From Methanococcoides sp. (lineage in GTDB: Archaea > Halobacteriota > Methanosarcinia > Methanosarcinales > Methanosarcinaceae), in NCBI GenBank assembly GCA_021108185.1, contig JAIORJ010000112.1:1-54265 (forward strand): a DNA stretch of 54,265 bases, given 5' to 3'. This document shows positions 8,231-54,265 of this stretch, in pieces. Position 1 is the stretch's first letter, and each line of letters starts with the position of its first letter. The notes beneath the pieces are model-generated. The model made no database searches. It saw only the letters and a list, made by a program, of their open reading frames with translations, and was not told the DNA's origin. Both the position numbers and the translations under genes were made by a program.

Positions 8231-8317
8231 AGTACCTTAGCACTACATTACATGAAACTGAATGCTAAAAGTGATAAGCCATTTACTTTGAATACTGTCT
8301 CCATAAAAGTTAATTAA
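8231..8317 (+). pseudogene. 3'-end remnant of a cas1-like gene (copy A)
   Basis: Translates to STLALHYMKLNAKSDKPFTL followed by a short unrelated tail and a stop. The stretch LHYMKxNAxSD is the same as in the cas1-like fragment at the right end of the window (LHYMKQNARS), and the DNA is also closely similar. Nothing upstream in this frame resembles the rest of Cas1, so only the last 20 or so codons remain. Confidence 0.5.
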
Positions 8318-8462: not shown

Positions 8463-8933
8463 CTATTGATATCCTACCAATATCGAAAAAGAGATTGTAG
8501 CCAACACAAAGAGTTTTCAGTTCGAATATTTCATTGTAAAAACCTCATCAATAAACTCATTCAGAGTATAGAGTGGCACATCATTTTTGAAGTATATATT
8601 TCACATACCTTTCTTTTATTTCTACCTGCACGTTTAGCCAATCTTCTAAGGATCATAAGATAGCCCATATATTGCATTTGTTGCCCTTTTTTGATATTGC
8701 CTTGTTTATTCACACATAACCATCTGAATCGTTCCTGTGTGGATGTACGTCCAACCAGGCGGTAACATAAGGACAACTAGAGATAATACGTATTCTTCTC
8801 ATTCCAGTTTTGCCACCTACCTGGATAATACCGCCAGCTTGAGAATATGTGATACCAATAAATCTGTGGAAAAATAAAGGGAATGTTTATCTACTGATAG
8901 GGAACATAAATATTTAGTATAGGGGGAAAAATT
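8463..8933. other. Gene-poor stretch with recombinase remains
   Basis: No intact gene is visible in these 470 bases. The minus strand holds a broken tyrosine recombinase, described separately. The last 60 bases hold the promoter and ribosome site of the gene starting at 8934, including the run AGGGGG 7 bases before its GTG. Confidence 0.5.
8560..8859 (-). pseudogene. Tyrosine recombinase (phage-type integrase) remnant
   Basis: The minus strand reads GGKTGMRRIRIISS and then TAWLDVHPHRNDSDGYV up to a TGA, in the style of archaeal XerC/D-like integrases (GKTGMRRVRLV ... WLDxHP). After a frameshift the reading resumes as NIKKGQQMQYMGYLMILRRL. The first catalytic Arg region and the C-terminal HxxR and Tyr motifs are missing, so it cannot be active. 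An integrase relic on the 3' side of tRNA-Arg suggests an old integrated element. Confidence 0.6.
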
Positions 8934-31443: not shown

Positions 31444-32394
31444 TTAGGCAGTAGCATCAAGGATAATTCCCTGATCCGAAGGTACTATCAAGGTCTGCAC
31501 TTCCTGACTCTCAAGCATCTGGATGTACTTGTAGTTGATAAGCTTCGGGTTCTTTGAAAATTCTACATTGACCAGACGCAGAGCTTCGGCCTCACCTGTT
31601 GCCTGAACGATCGTAGCATTGGCAATACCATTAGCTTCGATGATCCTTCGTTCAGCTTCGAGCTGCTCTTTCTGTTTCACGAAGATCATCCTCTGAGCAT
31701 CCTGATCCGCCTGAAGCTTGGATTCAATAGCATCAGCGATCTTTGTTGGAAGTTGGACATTCCTGAGCAGAACCTCTTCAACAATTATACCATCGGCAAC
31801 AAGAGCCTTTTCCATCTCAATCTGCATTTCAGTAGCTACAAGGTCCCTTTGCTCACCATATATGGCCATGGCAGTGTGACCGGAAACAACTTCTCTTATA
31901 ACTGATTTGATAGTAGGTCTGATGATCTTCTGTGCATAAGCGGTACCAAGTTTTGTATGAACAACACTTGCATCATCTGAAACAAGCCTGTACCTGACAG
32001 AGATATCAAGCCCTAGCGTCAAGCCTTCATTGGTCAATGCATTTATCTGGTCATCTCCGACAACTTCACCTTCTGCAGCTTTGGCGCTCATTGTGTACAT
32101 TTCGCTCCGGACAGAATACTTTGTAACGCTTACCCAGGGAGGTACAATATGCAAACCTTCACCAAGTTCATCATCCATTACACCACCGAACTGACTGAAC
32201 TTCACTCCGACCTGTCCTGCACCAACTGAAACGAATATAGATCCGAACACTGCCGAAAAGATAAGCAATATCACAAGAACTATTGCACCACCACGAAGGA
32301 TGTTTGCCACCATTGGAGGGATATTTATCTCCGGCATCTGTGGGTCTTTAGTACTTTTTGGGCCTTTGGGATCCCAATCATCTTCCATTACCAT
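31444..32394 (-). CDS. SPFH (prohibitin/stomatin-like) membrane protein
   Basis: 316 residues. An N-terminal cytoplasmic segment with Pro-rich PKGPKSTKDPQMPE is followed by one membrane helix (about residues 34-56), then an SPFH domain (about 57-240) with GQVGVKFSQFGG and SVRYRLVSDDASVV, and a coiled coil rich in Glu and Ala (KQKEQLEAERRII, TGEAEALRL). Prohibitins form large membrane rings that scaffold or guard proteases. It sits inside a CoA-synthesis operon, where no direct metabolic role is evident. Confidence 0.9.
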   Translation of the reverse strand: MVMEDDWDPKGPKSTKDPQMPEINIPPMVANILRGGAIVLVILLIFSAVFGSIFVSVGAGQVGVKFSQFGGVMDDELGEGLHIVPPWVSVTKYSVRSEMYTMSAKAAEGEVVGDDQINALTNEGLTLGLDISVRYRLVSDDASVVHTKLGTAYAQKIIRPTIKSVIREVVSGHTAMAIYGEQRDLVATEMQIEMEKALVADGIIVEEVLLRNVQLPTKIADAIESKLQADQDAQRMIFVKQKEQLEAERRIIEANGIANATIVQATGEAEALRLVNVEFSKNPKLINYKYIQMLESQEVQTLIVPSDQGIILDATA

Positions 32395-32491
32395 AATCTT
32401 TGCTCCTTTTTTATAAAATAAAACTGAATTCTAATACATACTGCGATAGTCGTTAGGTCTTCTTCAATGTTGCGAACAAAAGACCCTGAGA

Positions 32492-33373
32492 TCAAATATC
32501 CAAAGGAAGGAGATTGCAAGAACCAACATTGTAGGTAAGGACATCACCGAACTCCTTAAGGGATTCCATAACATCCCCCTTCGAAGCAGCTCCTGAAATC
32601 GCAAAAATAGTGTCCCCCAGCATTGCCTGTGAGGACATACCACCAATAGCATCCACAGCTTCGAGGGCATCCAACAAGCGGTCGCTGGAAAGCCCGCACC
32701 TCAATGTGAACTGTTTCGAAAGTTCCATGAAATTATCCAGCGTAGGCATTGAAAGCAACGAACGTAAAGCTTCCCTGCCGGCAGAATTTATCTCACGCAT
32801 AATAACACTGTCCTCAAGAATAGAACCGGTGGAAAGTTCACCCAGCACAACACAAAATATCTCGAAAGGAGGGGATGGGACCCTGTCAAGCTTACCATAC
32901 GGAGGACAGCCCGCAGACAGGCGGATAGGTATCCCACCCTGGGACTGACCTTCGACATCACCCATCCCACTTCCATTCGTGACCTCTGCAATATGAGCGG
33001 TCCCTAACAACTGATTGGAAGTAAGACCCAGAGAAAAGGCTTCGTTCAATGCATAGGCCACGCTCAACGCACCTGCGGCTGAAGCACCAAAACCACACCC
33101 GATCGGAATAGAGGAAGTGCAACTGACCTTGACCGGGAAATCAACTAATTGTTCCACAACTGCCCTCGTGGTCTCTGCTAAAACAGGGATACCATCAAGG
33201 ATGATTTCCGTCCCACCCACGCATTCAGAAACGGTGGTCTCAATACCACCATCAAGAACAAGACCGCATCCTGTAGAACCTCTCTTTTGAGGCAGGGGGT
33301 CATCATGTATCTCAAAGAAACCGGTAATATGCCCGGGTGTAAAAGCCCTACCAACAGAGCTCTCAGTGGACAT
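32492..33373 (-). CDS. Pantoate kinase (GHMP family)
   Basis: 293 residues. Phosphorylates pantoate with ATP to 4-phosphopantoate, the archaeal-specific route to CoA. The GHMP ATP loop is SIPIGCGFGASAAGALSVAY; the N-terminal SVGRAFTPGHITGFFEI and the segment GSGMGDVEGQSQGGIPIR match the pantoate kinase branch. The gene overlaps coaBC by 11 bases and shares its operon. Confidence 0.92.
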   Translation of the reverse strand: MSTESSVGRAFTPGHITGFFEIHDDPLPQKRGSTGCGLVLDGGIETTVSECVGGTEIILDGIPVLAETTRAVVEQLVDFPVKVSCTSSIPIGCGFGASAAGALSVAYALNEAFSLGLTSNQLLGTAHIAEVTNGSGMGDVEGQSQGGIPIRLSAGCPPYGKLDRVPSPPFEIFCVVLGELSTGSILEDSVIMREINSAGREALRSLLSMPTLDNFMELSKQFTLRCGLSSDRLLDALEAVDAIGGMSSQAMLGDTIFAISGAASKGDVMESLKEFGDVLTYNVGSCNLLPLDI

Positions 33374-48884: not shown

Positions 48885-49034
48885 GTAGTTCTCCATGCAG
48901 CACTAGAAAGCATAATTGTATAAATAAAATTTGGAGTTTATATTGGTCAAAGTAAGGGAACTAAGCTATCATCTTAGAGAAGAAAACAAACGGTTGAAGA
49001 TAGGTCAAGCAGACCTAACTACCCCCAACACTTT

Positions 49035-50162
49035 TCAGATCACATTGAAATACAACAGCAGTGCAAGTAATAACAATACGACACCTGTAACGAACCTTAT
49101 CCCAGACCGTCGCTTCTCCCTGAATTGCATTACAGTTTCAGGACTCATCCCGAACGCCAGAAATACACCAAGTCCTAACACCGGAAGCACGACTCCAAAA
49201 TTGTAGAGGAAGAGATATACAGCTCCTTCCAGCAGATTTGTCCTTGCTATTAACATGTCCAGGATCGAAAGATAAACGGCACCTACACAGGGAGCCTTGA
49301 CCAATGAGAATAACCCGCCTGCAAAGAACGATAGAGCAAGGGCATTCTTCCCGTGTATGCTGTCCATAAAGGATACTATTGAACCCGGTGTTTTGAAGGT
49401 CGATCTTGAGTGACGCTTGAGGTAGTATGCGTCATAGATATGCCAGATACCGAGTACCCCTATCAATACCGTCATGAATAATGTTATAGCATCCCTTGAT
49501 GCAGGGAAGATAGTGACGGCTTTAAGGAAACTTATTCCGAATATCATGTAAGTGGTGAATATACCGGCGCAGAACCCACCGATGACCACCAGCATTTCTT
49601 TCTTTCCACCGTTGGAGGATATCGTGACCGAAGCCAGGAATGCCATCACCGCGAGAAGGCAGGGATTGAAGCCGGCGAGCAGGCCTGTGATCAGTACAAT
49701 TAATGGTGAAAGCTTAAAGGAAGTAACGCTTCCATCAACATTTTTGGCTAATGGTAAAGTACCATTGGCAGGAATTGTCGGTGCGTTCTCAATAGCTTCT
49801 ACCAGAAGGCTTTCAAGTAATATATCATCCCCATCGTAATCGGAATAGGCGATAACCGTACTCTTGTTTATGACAATAGCGGGAACAGTGTATACTCCGT
49901 ATCCTTTCATGATACTGTAGGAGGTTGCTATGTTGTGACTTGTGTAATTGATGTCGTCATAACTGCTTATCACCGAATCTATGACAGGGGATGTTTGCTG
50001 GCATTTCAGGCAGCCATCCTCGTAGAAATATTCAACCATCACTCCGTCTGATCGGGCTGCTGAAGCAGGCATCATGCTTGAAATGACAAGCAGAAGTATC
50101 AATAAGGTCAATATCGATTTAGTGGCATACTGTCGTAGCACATGTCCGTTTGTCATATTCAC
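49035..50162 (-). CDS. Thioredoxin-like domain fused to DsbD/CcdA transmembrane domain
   Basis: 375 residues. Signal peptide (about 15-36), then an outward-facing thioredoxin-like domain with CLKC (51-54) and a cis-Pro in YTVPAIVI. From about residue 130 follows a six- to eight-helix DsbD/CcdA domain with the paired transport cysteines in GFNPCLLAVMAF and VKAPCVGAVY. It would carry reducing power across the membrane to exported proteins. The thioredoxin-like domain is fused N-terminally, whereas in DsbD it is C-terminal. The gene overlaps the upstream small gene by 44 bases. Confidence 0.88.
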   Translation of the reverse strand: MNMTNGHVLRQYATKSILTLLILLLVISSMMPASAARSDGVMVEYFYEDGCLKCQQTSPVIDSVISSYDDINYTSHNIATSYSIMKGYGVYTVPAIVINKSTVIAYSDYDGDDILLESLLVEAIENAPTIPANGTLPLAKNVDGSVTSFKLSPLIVLITGLLAGFNPCLLAVMAFLASVTISSNGGKKEMLVVIGGFCAGIFTTYMIFGISFLKAVTIFPASRDAITLFMTVLIGVLGIWHIYDAYYLKRHSRSTFKTPGSIVSFMDSIHGKNALALSFFAGGLFSLVKAPCVGAVYLSILDMLIARTNLLEGAVYLFLYNFGVVLPVLGLGVFLAFGMSPETVMQFREKRRSGIRFVTGVVLLLLALLLYFNVI

Positions 50163-50574
50163 TCTCTGAAACTATCTGTTTTGAGATTTCCAGCACATCA
50201 CCGGTATCTGCCAAGACATAACCTTCCAGAACATACAGATCGCTTATCTTCTGGCAAGCGCAACTGCGTTCCATGATCTCAACTTTCCAAATGTCGTATC
50301 CCTGCATGGCAGTACCATTCTGGTCGTAAGGTGTTTCCTGGACAAAGGTTGTTCTGGTAACCCTCCAATCCGGTTCTTTGAAGTGACGTGACATGTAATC
50401 GGATGCAACCGGATTATTCATCGTAATTTCTACGGCTTGAGAGCCATTAAAATTAGGCCTCGACTGCACATCGCTCTCCTGCTGAGAATAATTGGCATAA
50501 ACAAGACCTACCCCCACAAGACAAAATATAACCACTACAGCTACTGCTGCTACAACTAAATTTGAACTTTTTAT
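50119..50574 (-). CDS. Small exported protein with C-terminal Cys pairs, partner of the DsbD-like protein
   Basis: From GTG at 50535 it has 138 residues; with the ATA at 50574 it gains 13, giving a proper signal anchor (MIKSSNLVVAAVAVVVIF). The exported part has a PepSY-like look (ASDYMSRHFKEP ... YDIWKVEIM ... LADTGDVLEIS). Cysteines are in SCACQK and at the very end in CATTVCH. Overlap with the DsbD-type gene suggests that these Cys exchange electrons with it. The GTG lacks a ribosome site, while GGGGG sits 7 bases before the ATA. Confidence 0.65.
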   Translation of the reverse strand: MKSSNLVVAAVAVVVIFCLVGVGLVYANYSQQESDVQSRPNFNGSQAVEITMNNPVASDYMSRHFKEPDWRVTRTTFVQETPYDQNGTAMQGYDIWKVEIMERSCACQKISDLYVLEGYVLADTGDVLEISKQIVSESEYDKRTCATTVCH

Positions 50575-50637
50575 AAGCGTACCCCCTTATTATATACAAA
50601 TTATAATTGATCTAATATAAGGCTAATTAGCTAATTT

Positions 50638-50850
50638 TTGCATTTCATATATTATTTACTTAAGAAAGTCAATGCTAAGTTTAATTTTGTGATGAAATAT
50701 AAAGTTGAGTATAGAGGAAAGAATAGTTATTGGGTTAAAGCAAGGGAATTAGATCATCAGCTTGTCGGGAAGATGAAAAAAGTTGATCTGCTAAGCCATT
50801 TTATACAGGGAAAGAGATGATTCGGATCTGTTAAGTTTGTGGATGTGGAA
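50638..50850 (+). pseudogene. cas1-like remnant (copy B)
   Basis: A 60-aa reading frame containing KVEYRGKNSYW, VKARELDHQLVGKMKK aligns with the cas1-like fragment at the window end (KVEYRKKNSSW ... VKAMELSHQLVGKRKT), both as protein and as DNA. A 15-base gap removes the GSVLL segment. After the lysines the frame breaks, but DNA similarity continues to about 50850 (GATTCGGATCTGTTAAG). Both ends of Cas1 are missing, so it is not functional. Confidence 0.6.
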
Positions 50851-50968
50851 AAATATTGGTGAGATTCATTGATCCATAAAATATAAACAAGATCATTCTA
50901 CTGTACCATTGATATAGAATACTGTTCAAAGATTCAATGAATACTAACTAAAGGAGTGGGGTTAAAAC

Positions 50969-51244
50969 GTGGATATGAAAGAATTCGAAGGCATGGTTAT
51001 CTGCCAGAGTTGTGGAATGCCTTTGGGGAAAGATGAAGATTTTGGAACTAATGCCGACGGGATAAAAAATGATGAATATTGTCTCTATTGCTACCAGAAT
51101 GGGAAGTTCACACAACCTGATATTACTCTGGAAGAAATGATCGAACAAACTTCAAAAGCAATAGATAAAGAGGGAGTTATGTCTTTGGAAGAAGCAAAGG
51201 AACTGAGCCAACAGAATATTCCAAAATTAAAGAGATGGAAGTGA
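50969..51244 (+). CDS. Putative zinc-ribbon protein
   Basis: 91 residues. An N-terminal zinc ribbon, CQSCGMPL ... CLYCYQNG (about 12-48), of the type often annotated Zn_ribbon_2, is followed by a helical part (TLEEMIEQTSKAID, SLEEAKELSQQNIP). Function unknown; such proteins are common in methanogens and anaerobic bacteria. The start is GTG at 50969 with a G-rich ribosome site 7 bases upstream; an ATG 6 bases later is also possible. Confidence 0.8.
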   Translation: MDMKEFEGMVICQSCGMPLGKDEDFGTNADGIKNDEYCLYCYQNGKFTQPDITLEEMIEQTSKAIDKEGVMSLEEAKELSQQNIPKLKRWK

Positions 51245-51287
51245 ATTTGTTAATTAATACTATTAGAGTTGCTCTAGCTGAAGCAGA

Positions 51288-51461
51288 ATGCAAAGTCAAC
51301 GCATTTCAGACTTAATGATCTATGAAAGAGGAGTTGACCTTCGGACACCCATTTGTGATGGACCCGTACCGTGTGAGATCAATCAGGCGAATTTGATAAC
51401 CAACCTGACAGAAGAAGACTGCCCTGACTTCACAGGTATTTGCCACTCCATTAAATTATGA
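51288..51461 (+). CDS. Possible 57-aa Cys-containing protein
   Basis: ATG to TGA with four Cys (PICDGPVPCEIN and EDCPDFTGICHS), arranged as two pairs. No clear ribosome site is present. It fills most of the gap between the zinc-ribbon and J-domain genes. It may be a small metal-binding protein, a gene fragment or chance. Confidence 0.3.
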   Translation: MQSQRISDLMIYERGVDLRTPICDGPVPCEINQANLITNLTEEDCPDFTGICHSIKL

Positions 51462-51589
51462 CTGCAATGCTCATGTTTTTTCGCAATTTGAACATGGATG
51501 AGGAAGAAAGTTGTTCCATAAAATGCATATTTTTATATAAAGGAGCATAGTACTAACGAAGTCTTCAAAAACGAAAATGAGTGAATCAA

Positions 51590-52123
51590 ATGATAAAAAT
51601 AAAAGGACATGAAATTGACCCAGTAATTATTAAGAACGCTGGTAATCGTAGAGCTATGCAATTCAAGAATAATATTATTACGGCTTTAAGAAGGGTCGGT
51701 GTTAATGAAAATGATATTGACGTACCTCTTGAACGTCTAGCGATGAAAAAAACTCATGCTTCTGCGACCTGGTACCAGGATGGACATAGAATGCATTACA
51801 CCCATGGCCTACAAAATAAATATGTAGAAAATCTTCATATCCTATCCAAGGTAATTGAGATCGAAGCAAATAGGGTCATTTCCGGGGAAAAACCACTGTC
51901 CGATTTTATTTTAGAGTTCAAAGAAGATAAAGATGTTCATGATAAGCGCCAAGAGGCACGAGAGTTTTTCGAATGCGCTCATGATGAGATAGATTTTGAG
52001 GTCATTAATAAAAAATACAAGGACATGGCAAAAGAATTGCATCCAGATAAGCCAACTGGTGACACTGAGAAATTCAAGCAGCTAAATATTGCACATAAGA
52101 TATTGAAGAGAGAATTGACATAA
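51590..52123 (+). CDS. J-domain protein
   Basis: 177 residues. The C-terminal third is a J domain: YKDMAKELHPDKPTG contains the HPD tripeptide, followed by KFKQLNIAHKILK. The N-terminal part (KNAGNRRAMQFKNNIITALRR, then HASATWYQDGHRMHYTHGLQ) is an unassigned domain. It would stimulate an Hsp70 partner at an unknown site. It lacks the Gly/Phe and zinc parts of DnaJ, so it is not the housekeeping DnaJ. The ATG at 51590 follows GAGTGA; a GTG at 51581 is also in frame. A TATA box TTTTATATAAA lies near 51530-51541. Confidence 0.82.
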   Translation: MIKIKGHEIDPVIIKNAGNRRAMQFKNNIITALRRVGVNENDIDVPLERLAMKKTHASATWYQDGHRMHYTHGLQNKYVENLHILSKVIEIEANRVISGEKPLSDFILEFKEDKDVHDKRQEAREFFECAHDEIDFEVINKKYKDMAKELHPDKPTGDTEKFKQLNIAHKILKRELT

Positions 52124-52344
52124 GCTCCCTTCATACCTCTTACTTTTCATTCATCTCTGATCTGGCAGGATGCCTTACAAACCCGGATACACTACAGTAA
52201 TTTTCCTTTGTACAGAACACGATACTCTTATCCCTCACCATCCACAATAATGAGCTAATTGTATGTCAGCGGGATTAATTCGTACACTAATATGGAATAA
52301 GATTCATAAAATTATCATTAGCAGTAGTTAAAGAAATTCAAAAA

Positions 52345-52383
52345 ATTTAAAAAAATAGAGGTTGAGAGATAATCACTCTCAAC
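52345..52383 (-). terminator. Intrinsic terminator of the cohesin-like gene
   Basis: On the minus strand GTTGAGAG and CTCTCAAC form an 8-bp stem with a 7-base loop, and CTCTATTTTTTTAAATTTTTT follows within a few bases. It begins 7 bases after the stop region of the gene at 52390. Confidence 0.7.
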
Positions 52384-52389
52384 TAATTC

Positions 52390-53043
52390 TTAACAATATG
52401 GCTTATCTGTACGATACAGATCTATCAGTTCACTGACATCTGCAATCGATGTTGAACCCTGTAAACGGTAGTCATCGATTGCCGCACTCACTTCACCAAT
52501 ATCGATCATACAGTTCTTATTTTCATCGTACGGATTGTATGTAACTACAGGGGCTTCATTAATAGTCAGAGTCGTATTTATGACCAGGGCCTCTATGGCA
52601 GATCCTAATGAGTCACTTATGATCACGTTTTTCAGACTAATTGTTGATGTGCCTGCAGCCTGCTCTTTTACACTCATTGTGATGCTTGCAGCTGACTCAG
52701 GTCCTAAGATTCCTGGAGAACCCATTATCAAACTGTAAACACCTGAAAGTGTTCCTGCATTGTTGTCTATGCTTCCGGCGTTGAAAAATGTTAAAGCTCC
52801 ATTCTGGCTAAACAATAAGCCTTCAGATACGCTGTCTACCTGTATTTTTGAGCTGTCAAACTCGAGATCGAACTGTAATCCTGCAATTGCAGTATCAGGT
52901 GATACAAAGACATCTACTGTGAAACTTTCACCGGTTGTAAGCATTTGAGTTGATGGTTCAAGTGTTACTTCTGTTGCAGTTGAATTGAAACAACCAAAAA
53001 CAAGCAGAAGTAAAAATATAGTAATTATTGTAACGTTTTTGAT
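52390..53043 (-). CDS. Secreted cohesin-like protein with dockerin-like C-terminus
   Basis: From the proposed ATC start it has 217 residues (234 from an ATG at 53094). The signal peptide is VTIITIFLLLLVFGC, with a possible lipid-modified Cys. A cohesin-type domain follows (about 25-150: GESFTVDVFVSPDTAIAGLQ, FDLEFDSSKIQVDSVSEGLL). The C-terminus has one or two EF-hand-like dockerin repeats (DENKNCMIDIGEVSAAIDDY, IADVSELIDLY). Methanogens have such pairs but no cellulosome, so a surface-assembly role is inferred. The ATG at 53094 would lie before the likely transcription start, and AGGAGGGG is 7 bases from the ATC. Confidence 0.82.
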   Translation of the reverse strand: MKNVTIITIFLLLLVFGCFNSTATEVTLEPSTQMLTTGESFTVDVFVSPDTAIAGLQFDLEFDSSKIQVDSVSEGLLFSQNGALTFFNAGSIDNNAGTLSGVYSLIMGSPGILGPESAASITMSVKEQAAGTSTISLKNVIISDSLGSAIEALVINTTLTINEAPVVTYNPYDENKNCMIDIGEVSAAIDDYRLQGSTSIADVSELIDLYRTDKPYC

Positions 53044-53082
53044 GGATACCCCTCCTATTTTAGAACTCGTAGATTTATAGCC

Positions 53083-53090
53083 ATATATAC
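53083..53090 (-). promoter_or_regulatory. TATA box of the cohesin-like gene
   Basis: TATATATG on the minus strand, within the conventional reading of the first codons of the same ORF. Transcription starting about 25 bases later (near 53060) would leave out the ATG at 53094 and give a leader of about 17 bases that contains only the AGGAGG ribosome site. Confidence 0.55.
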
Positions 53091-53381
53091 TCATTTGAGC
53101 ATTTGGATGATGATATAATAATTTGCCCTAAATAAAATCATTTTGGTACGTTTCAAATAGAGAGTTCGTAAAAAAGTTTAAAGGATATACTTTATTTAAA
53201 TTTATCAGAACAAAATTATTGCTTGAAATTAGCCGAAATACTCCGAACAATAGGATTATTGAAAGTTCTGGGTAAATTTTCTGCTTATTTAGGGGTTCGG
53301 TTTTTTGTGTTACCTATATCCCCACACTAATTCATTTAAAGCAGATCTATGTAATGCTTGACATTAGCTCAAACACTATAT

Positions 53382-53807
53382 TCATAGCAAAGATCTCATG
53401 TCCATTATTAGCGAGACCACTATTGCAATTATCGAGAAGGTGATGATAAGCAGGTAGTTCAAACGTTCTTTTGAAACAGAGAGACTCCATATAATGTATT
53501 TCAGTCCTTCCAGATCCTTTTCTGTAAGTATCTCACGCTTTTCGATCTTGTCAAGCAGTTCAAGTTCATTCAGGACATTTGTGCGGCGCTTTGCTATACG
53601 ATAGCGGTGGGCAAAGAATACCATGTATCCTATAACTCCGAGATAGAATAGCATGCGTGCAACATGATCATTGTAGTAGTCGGCTATGATTATGACCCTC
53701 AAAGCTATTGCAGAAACAAGACCCACCCAGAAATATAAACTGATGGTCCTGTTGCTATACCCTTTTGGAATCTTTACGCCCGAGAGATTAATTTTACAGC
53801 TACCCAT
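53382..53807 (-). CDS. Small membrane protein, three helices
   Basis: About 141 residues. Membrane segments: LYFWVGLVSAIALRVIIIA, MLFYLGVIGYMVFFA, and a C-terminal YLLIITFSIIAIVVSLIM. Between the second and third is a charged amphipathic region (NELELLDKIEKREILTEKDL). Family not recognised. The start at 53807 has no ribosome site, but TTTATAAT about 28 bases upstream fits a leaderless mRNA; a TTG at 53873 is rejected. Confidence 0.6.
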   Translation of the reverse strand: MGSCKINLSGVKIPKGYSNRTISLYFWVGLVSAIALRVIIIADYYNDHVARMLFYLGVIGYMVFFAHRYRIAKRRTNVLNELELLDKIEKREILTEKDLEGLKYIIWSLSVSKERLNYLLIITFSIIAIVVSLIMDMRSLL

Positions 53808-53888
53808 GGAAGTAGATATGCAATCATTTATTATAAAGTTTGTTGATAACTTTATATAGTAAAATAAAGGCAAACACTTTCCTTTTGC

Positions 53889-54265
53889 CTTTTAAGTGAT
53901 TTTGATGAAAAGGGAGTTATGGATAGTAAGGACTTTGTGAGGACTGAGAGCTTTTCATTGAGGCTTAGACCAAGTGGAGCAAGGAAGGTTACAGAAGAAT
54001 TTAATTATGTACTGAATGGCAAAGTTGAGTACAGAAAAAAGAATAGTTCTTGGGGATCAGTTCTTTTGGTTAAGGCAATGGAGTTAAGCCATCAGCTTGT
54101 TGGGAAGAGGAAAACGATTGAGTTTAGTAAACCTGCTTATGTGGGAGAAAGGGTTGATTCTGATCTGTTGAGGAAGAAGATCATTGACATGTCTTATACT
54201 GAATGGAAGAAGATGGGGTTCTCTAAGGGCACGTTGCATTACATGAAACAGAATGCTAGGAGTGA
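53889..54265 (+). pseudogene. cas1-like C-terminal fragment (copy C, runs off window)
   Basis: The frame, open from about 53868, reads LLSDFDEKGVMDSKDFVRTE, then SFSLRLRPSGARKVTEEFN, KVEYRKKNSSWGSVLLVKA, ELSHQLVGKRKTIEFSKPAY and SYTEWKKMGFSKGTLHYMKQ. This matches the C-terminal half of Cas1 as I know it from methanogens, including an extra C-terminal segment also found in some Cas1/casposase proteins. The catalytic N-terminal half is absent: a stop and an opposite-strand gene lie directly upstream. The first ATG is 53919. It could be translated as a short protein, but as Cas1 it is truncated. Confidence 0.6.

Follow-up and report, generated by a model that had tools for sequence, protein, structure and literature searches.

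What are the two short stretches of related coding sequence near the end of a 54,265-nt contig of a Methanococcoides genome, and how did the genes between them come to be there? The contig (C13 of the source genome G000; 2.32 Mb, 230 contigs) was analysed in full and is called the window here, and was compared with the genus relatives G001-G010, which with G000 make 11 genomes. An initial annotation had described the stretch at 50638-50850 as a cas1-like fragment resembling the window end over about 190 bases, with a 15-base deletion and a later frame break. It had also proposed that recombination between the two copies could delete or move the block that they bracket.

Casposase gene fragments in the window

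A blastn search of 50401-51100 against the window returned a sole other match, at 54000-54172 on the same strand. This stretch aligns with 50680-50835 at 69.4% identity over 173 columns (E 8.4e-16), with one 15-base and two 1-base gaps. A second Cas1-family copy in the same direction, the 15-base deletion and the frame break are thus all present as described; the similarity is also real, but it extends over ~160-200 bases rather than the full 213, and neither end is sharp. At the protein level the first copy (stub 1) matches over 50662-50817, at 53-54% identity. The second (stub 2) lies ~3.3 kb away in the same direction and runs off the contig, presumably reflecting the tendency of contigs to break at repeats. 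The annotation was also right about what the copies bracket: zinc-ribbon, J-domain, cohesin and membrane-protein genes (Table 1). A search of G000 gave 21 matches to the 115-aa peptide from the window end and 29 to a whole casposase, none of the 29 at full length, so the window copies are two of many.

Neither fragment has a match in Pfam. The window-end peptide, however, matched residues 283-397 of 6opm chain A (phmmer, E 4.6e-40), and a full-length casposase from the genus matched the same chain over 397 residues (E 1.4e-192); 6OPM is named in the available text of the Methanosarcina mazei casposase structure paper (PMC6977970). According to the available portion of PMC4046053, family-2 casposases carry a C-terminal HTH that is absent from other Cas1 proteins, and casposon PolB has a similar HTH. 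Given the 6opm match and an HTH peculiar to family-2 casposases, both fragments are, by sequence, pieces of casposase genes, and 50638-50850 is quite probably the remnant of the casposase gene of a family-2 casposon. The label 'cas1-like' therefore holds for the protein family, but the gene is that of a casposon integrase, a casposase, and not a CRISPR cas1.

Stub 2 reaches from the last portion of the Cas1 part into the HTH, most of which it includes, whereas stub 1 is confined to codons ~285-352. The Cas1 catalytic part, recognisable by ESE, GFLHE and YDLQE, precedes codon ~260, so neither piece could encode an active integrase. As PolB, HNH and the two HTH genes are absent at 50-54 kb, the locus is a casposon remnant and not a casposon; the only PolB sequence in the window is a scrap at 8467-8611. 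This scrap and a third casposase tail nearby lie ~2 kb from a tRNA-Arg gene.

One end of the lost element can still be recognised. A terminal inverted repeat (TIR) at 53293-53322 scored 28.3, where four shuffled windows reached 13.5 at most, on a PWM built with seed TIRs taken from the very regions that were scanned; the TIR pattern had 10 hits in G000 and none for reversed-pattern controls, and an orthologue of this TIR was found in G009. The window contains no partner for it, the left TIR being missing, and no clean target duplication was found for the element, the base run past the TIR being eroded. There is no tRNA-Leu near the chain. We infer that the window holds one complete scar chain, from 50640 through the zinc-ribbon, J-domain and cohesin genes to the TIR at 53322, followed by the start of the next at 53898. 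The membrane-protein ORF that separates the TIR from stub 2 could be either cargo or a host gene. Two other readings of these boundaries were discarded: a casposon end at the casposase stop, where homology ends, was rejected as TIRs were found further out, and a constant distance of 377-577 bp from a TIR to the stub that follows was put down to chance, since the intervals had only short pieces of sequence in common.

Table 1. Positions of casposon-related features and neighbouring genes in the window
Feature	Position	Strand	Basis or remark
Third casposase tail, 17 codons (LHYMKLNAKSDKPFTLN)	8243..8293	+	sequence match
Casposon PolB fragment, aa ~80-128 in three pieces	8467..8611	-	sequence match
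Stub 1, decayed casposase 3' fragment, codons ~285-352 of ~400	50640..50835	+	15-nt deletion, 1-nt frame break
Zinc-ribbon protein (PF12674), likely cargo of stub 1 element	50969..51244	+	Pfam
J-domain protein (PF00226), likely cargo	51581..52123	+	Pfam
Repeated 3' segment of cohesin gene, dockerin-like by eye	52334..52551	-	repeats in G000
Cohesin-domain secreted protein (PF00963), likely cargo	52390..53094	-	Pfam
Casposon terminal inverted repeat GGGATATAGGTAACACAAAAAACCGAACCC	53293..53322	-	element on lower-coordinate side
Eroded target-site position	53323..53336	.	G009 orthologue reads CGAATGATTGTGCG (CGCA class, other strand)
Membrane-protein ORF between TIR and stub 2	53382..53873	-	no Pfam hit; conserved in G002, G008
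Stub 2, casposase fragment, codons ~259-380, open frame	53898..54265	+	ends at contig end

Casposons, remnants and passenger genes across the genus

Casposase matches of at least 300 codons number 15 in all and occur in nine of the 11 genus genomes; none was found in G002 or in G000, a draft from which an intact copy could be missing. Most mapped intact copies stand with two HTH genes, HNH and PolB between TIRs, in keeping with the family-2 core of casposase, PolB, HNH and two HTH genes given in the sections of PMC4046053 consulted, and most are bounded by TIRs of the M. mazei kind, as described in the text seen of PMC10359463. The genus elements resemble family-2 casposons (MetMaz-C1 and MetBur-C1 to C3; Krupovic et al. 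2014) in the C-terminal HTH of the casposase and the similar HTH of PolB, in their HNH and two HTH genes, and in a TIR start of GGGATATAGGTAA, a 14-bp CGCA-type target duplication and insertion at tRNA-Leu ends. Unlike them, the window locus has only tails, one TIR and passenger genes, and the core is gone.

In the regions scanned with the PWM, head-to-head TIRs at 15-bp spacing, with 14 bases left between them, occur at 15 distinct sites (the L143 pair is the same site as the L112 pair and was counted once). These pairs are tandem casposons that share a target duplication; such tandems of family-2 casposons have been described before, in the available text of PMC6563490 and PMC9939771. The 14-bp flanks were identical for eight of 11 relatives' elements examined and did not match for the other three. 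G005 carries three tandem casposons (L102:5959-14391, L102:14406 to L103:5449, and L103:5464-15583) with TIRs and the shared 14-bp CTCATAACAAGTCG. As the three are adjacent, they are probably the M. burtonii casposons, for which TIRs had not been found according to the portion of PMC4046053 available. A 3.2-kb element in G003 (L109:8188-11407) has TIRs, identical 14-bp flanks, a casposase of intact length and one passenger gene, and lacks PolB. Among the casposase and cas2 copies of the genus there are several TAG codons in frame; since TAG may be translated as pyrrolysine in these archaea, such amber codons may not inactivate the genes.

Intact elements are outnumbered by remnants. A whole-casposase search of the 11 genomes gave 210 matches, at ~10-40 per genome and mostly scars. 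The 133 partial casposase matches tabulated are strongly skewed towards the 3' end: 95 reach codon 390 or beyond and nine touch codons 1-200, and mean cover per site is 0.6-3.2 over aa 1-243 versus 73-95 over aa 352-405. The 74 partial PolB matches tabulated behave alike, with a cover of 1-5 over aa 1-623 and of 35 over the last 89 aa. The skew of the casposase copies is not a detection effect, because the 14 intact casposases are better conserved at aa 1-108 (0.90-0.94) than at aa 352-405 (0.74-0.88). The common layout has casposase and PolB directed outwards, which turns the tail of each towards an arm with passenger genes, and chains of tail, passenger gene and TIR run in one direction in regions such as L116 (G000) and L136 (G005); some regions show other orders.

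Leftovers of this general kind have precedents. M. mazei has solo TIRs and casposons in tandem (Krupovic et al. 2016, as presented in the available parts of PMC6977970, PMC6563490 and PMC9939771), likewise casposon leftovers and re-use of a target, but the Methanococcoides leftovers keep gene tails and passenger genes, number ~10-40 per genome and favour the 3' ends of casposase and PolB. A parallel named in the portion of PMC4046053 consulted, Tn7 islands in tandem with some copies inactivated, shares the repeated insertion at one site and the decay of older copies; the casposon differs in its Cas1-type integrase and self-encoded polymerase. The parts of the literature examined (PMC4046053, PMC6977970, PMC10359463, PMC6563490, PMC9939771 and PMC11656645) contain no mention of 3'-biased casposase scars, nor of a CRISPR-Cas system within a casposon.

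The genes of the window block recur elsewhere beside other casposon remnants, which points to their delivery as casposon cargo. The zinc-ribbon gene lies directly downstream of a casposase stub in G004 (stub C3:175076-175237, gene 174663-175055) and in G003 (stub C14:32595-32735, gene 32171-32565), and homologues in G007, G001 and G010 are without such direct contact. The J-domain gene stands beside PolB or casposase remnants, and near a tRNA-Leu-like match, in G001, G003, G004 and G006. As G005 has it at the locus equivalent to the window, without stub 1 and without the zinc ribbon, it may have arrived separately from the stub 1 element. Cohesin homologues lie beside casposon remnants or TIRs in G002, G003 and G008, and the 210-bp end of the cohesin gene has six further copies in G000, and four of these immediately follow a casposase stub. 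The zinc-ribbon gene (dN/dS 0.16-0.27), the J-domain gene (0.03-0.21) and the membrane-protein ORF (0.11-0.16) are under purifying selection. For the cohesin gene, dN/dS was 0.33-0.43 against G009 and G002 and 0.95 against G003, values that make a weak case for its retention by selection.

Descent of the locus and origin of the tails

The block at 48993-52232, comprising stub 1 and its neighbours, is present at 93% identity in G008 and G002; G009 keeps it too, but with stub 1 interrupted. Stub 1 is frame-broken in both G000 and G008. It is thus of shared ancestry in these four genomes. Stub 2 exists in three states: G000 keeps codons from ~259 onward, G008 joins codon ~264 to ~386 across a GATA common to both sides, and in G002 the junction jumps to codon ~319. 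They reflect a single ancestral stub that underwent different deletions. G009 retains the TIR, a deletion has removed it from G002, and G008 has lost it along with the cohesin gene. In the G002 and G009 orthologues, a ~505-bp insertion at 52226-52232 has a 7-base flank overlap, as from a small mobile element.

We consider it likely that such loci arise by casposon insertion with cargo, erosion of the core by deletions, and retention of the cargo by selection. Casposons would have inserted at 14-bp CGCA-type targets, often tRNA-Leu ends and often in tandem, their passenger genes lying between a TIR and the outward-facing 3' end of casposase or PolB. After insertion the core genes may have lost their use and been eroded by successive deletions, whose inner limit would be the first base whose loss harms a kept passenger gene. 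The outcome would be scars in the order casposase tail, cargo, TIR, with tails facing outward. This model takes the identity of the fragments, the TIR, the dispersed 3'-biased remnants, the shared descent of stub 1 and the different deletions in stub 2 directly from observation; selection on cargo, rather than a mechanism, would set the 3' bias. A retrotransposition-like 5' truncation, suggested by the 3' ends that the copies have in common, was dropped as an explanation, given that PolB has the same outward bias and that one stub carries differing internal deletions in three species.

A possible but rather unlikely alternative is that the tails belong to small non-autonomous casposons mobilised in trans, with the tail forming part of a region required in cis. 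TIR-bounded elements with just casposase or PolB tails do exist (for instance L137:5325-11321 and L166:3444-10042), although the flanks of these two are not identical. Homology of most intact copies ends at the casposase stop, and in three G005 elements the TIR lies 1-2.7 kb beyond that stop; hence no conserved cis region joins tail and end. Somewhat more doubtful still is the retention of casposase tails as functional HTHs, alone or fused, that bind casposon ends, dampen transposition or serve as regulators. The remnant seen most often is indeed aa ~359-399, which is the HTH; a similar HTH is present in PolB tails and many stubs lack an internal stop, but many others contain stops, and neither the broken frame of stub 1 in two species nor the three different cuts in stub 2 is what such a function would lead one to expect. 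Either of these two alternatives may nonetheless apply at some loci.

Homologous recombination between the two copies, as put forward in the initial annotation, is highly improbable as the means by which the block was deleted or moved. The copies do lie ~3.3 kb apart in the same direction, but they are just 69% identical over 173 columns, and the predicted loss occurs in none of the three relatives with stub 1 (G008, G002 and G009). Comparison of the block in these relatives, which the annotation had suggested, showed other changes, namely the loss of the cohesin-TIR segment in G008, the ~505-bp insertion in G002 and G009 and the internal deletions of stub 2 in G002 and G008, and none removes the block between the copies. 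The block does have a mobile history, but recombination between the two stubs as its route is not supported.

That the fragments are instead remnants of ordinary CRISPR-Cas loci is barely credible: they are of the Cas1 family and a CRISPR array lies just past the casposase in two genus genomes, but their best PDB match is the M. mazei casposase with its C-terminal extension, their neighbours are TIRs and PolB, the genuine CRISPR Cas1 of the genus is just ~25-27% identical, and searches of G000 for CRISPR remnants and an adaptation module (cas1, cas2 and array) found neither the genus repeat nor a Cas2 match. For the window, a CRISPR origin is refuted.

CRISPR-Cas systems inside casposons

The arrays beside casposases in two relatives belong to casposons that carry cas genes. 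In G001, a 19.8-kb casposon (C1:965493-985324; L152/L153) has ends whose first 45 bases are identical, a TSD AAAAGAAAAGTGCG on both sides, and a right end that abuts tRNA-Leu(TAA). It contains a 9-repeat array, casposase, HTHs, HNH and a frameshifted PolB, together with Cas3, Cas5 and Cas7 (below curated cut-offs), Cas6, Cas1b, Cas4, a 633-aa protein without a match at the place of Cas8, a 28-repeat array and a Cas2 with one in-frame TAG. One matching TIR pair with target duplications thus encloses casposase, PolB and cas genes, and the CRISPR-Cas system inside is of type I-B. That these are single elements rests mainly on the matching TIRs rather than on the duplications, which tandem neighbours share in any case. 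The tRNA-side sequence and gene of this site are also found in eight other genus genomes, among which only G005 has both CRISPR Cas1 and Cas2, and elsewhere than at the tRNA-Leu site. This absence of the module from the same site in relatives is consistent with casposon and cas genes moving as one unit.

The second example, in G010, is a 36.6-kb casposon (C1:1905367-1941969; L154-L156) whose TIRs differ at one of 40 bases and which is flanked on both sides by CGCATTTTAAGAAT. A 5-repeat array lies by the casposase and another array has 46 repeats; the type I effector module, different from that in G001, consists of Cas6, a Cas_CXXC_CXXC protein, a DevR/Cas7 protein, a weak Cas5 and Cas3. Metal-transport-like genes are also present in this casposon. 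The two casposons share a ~7.4-kb unit, from PolB through the casposase to the start of the array, at 86%, and their Cas3 proteins are 26% identical. G005 has a similar type I-B system for which no TIR was found in the 39 kb examined, and such systems therefore also live outside casposons. Taken over the genus, CRISPR-Cas systems probably travel as casposon cargo in Methanococcoides.

Could the casposase itself serve the array? We regard this as very unlikely. No Cas2 match was obtained in the G010 genome, where the casposase alone matches PF01867; being the only Cas1, beside arrays and an effector module and without Cas2, this casposase is a candidate for array-insertion testing. As of the text seen of PMC9939771, no casposon encoding Cas2 had been reported. 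A search with 38 spacers (8, 26 and 4) against 1.49 Mb of sequence gave one match (E 0.01). The idea that spacers are aimed at casposons was set aside, as this sole match falls in the G010 array rather than in a target gene. In the small G001 array, the spacer on the casposase side agrees at 30 of 32 bases with one in the large G010 array (L156:5265-5296).

Casposons are regarded as the origin of the CRISPR adaptation machinery and have been described as mostly present in one or few copies per genome. With many scars beside genes that may have come along, casposons become a measurable route of gene gain, and the scars can be used as tags for finding casposon cargo. If this reading is true, Methanococcoides casposons would serve as carriers of genes in general, leaving scars behind, and whole CRISPR-Cas systems would be among their cargo. 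The presence of CRISPR-Cas within casposons links both systems in living genomes and would offer testable material for the question of how CRISPR originated.
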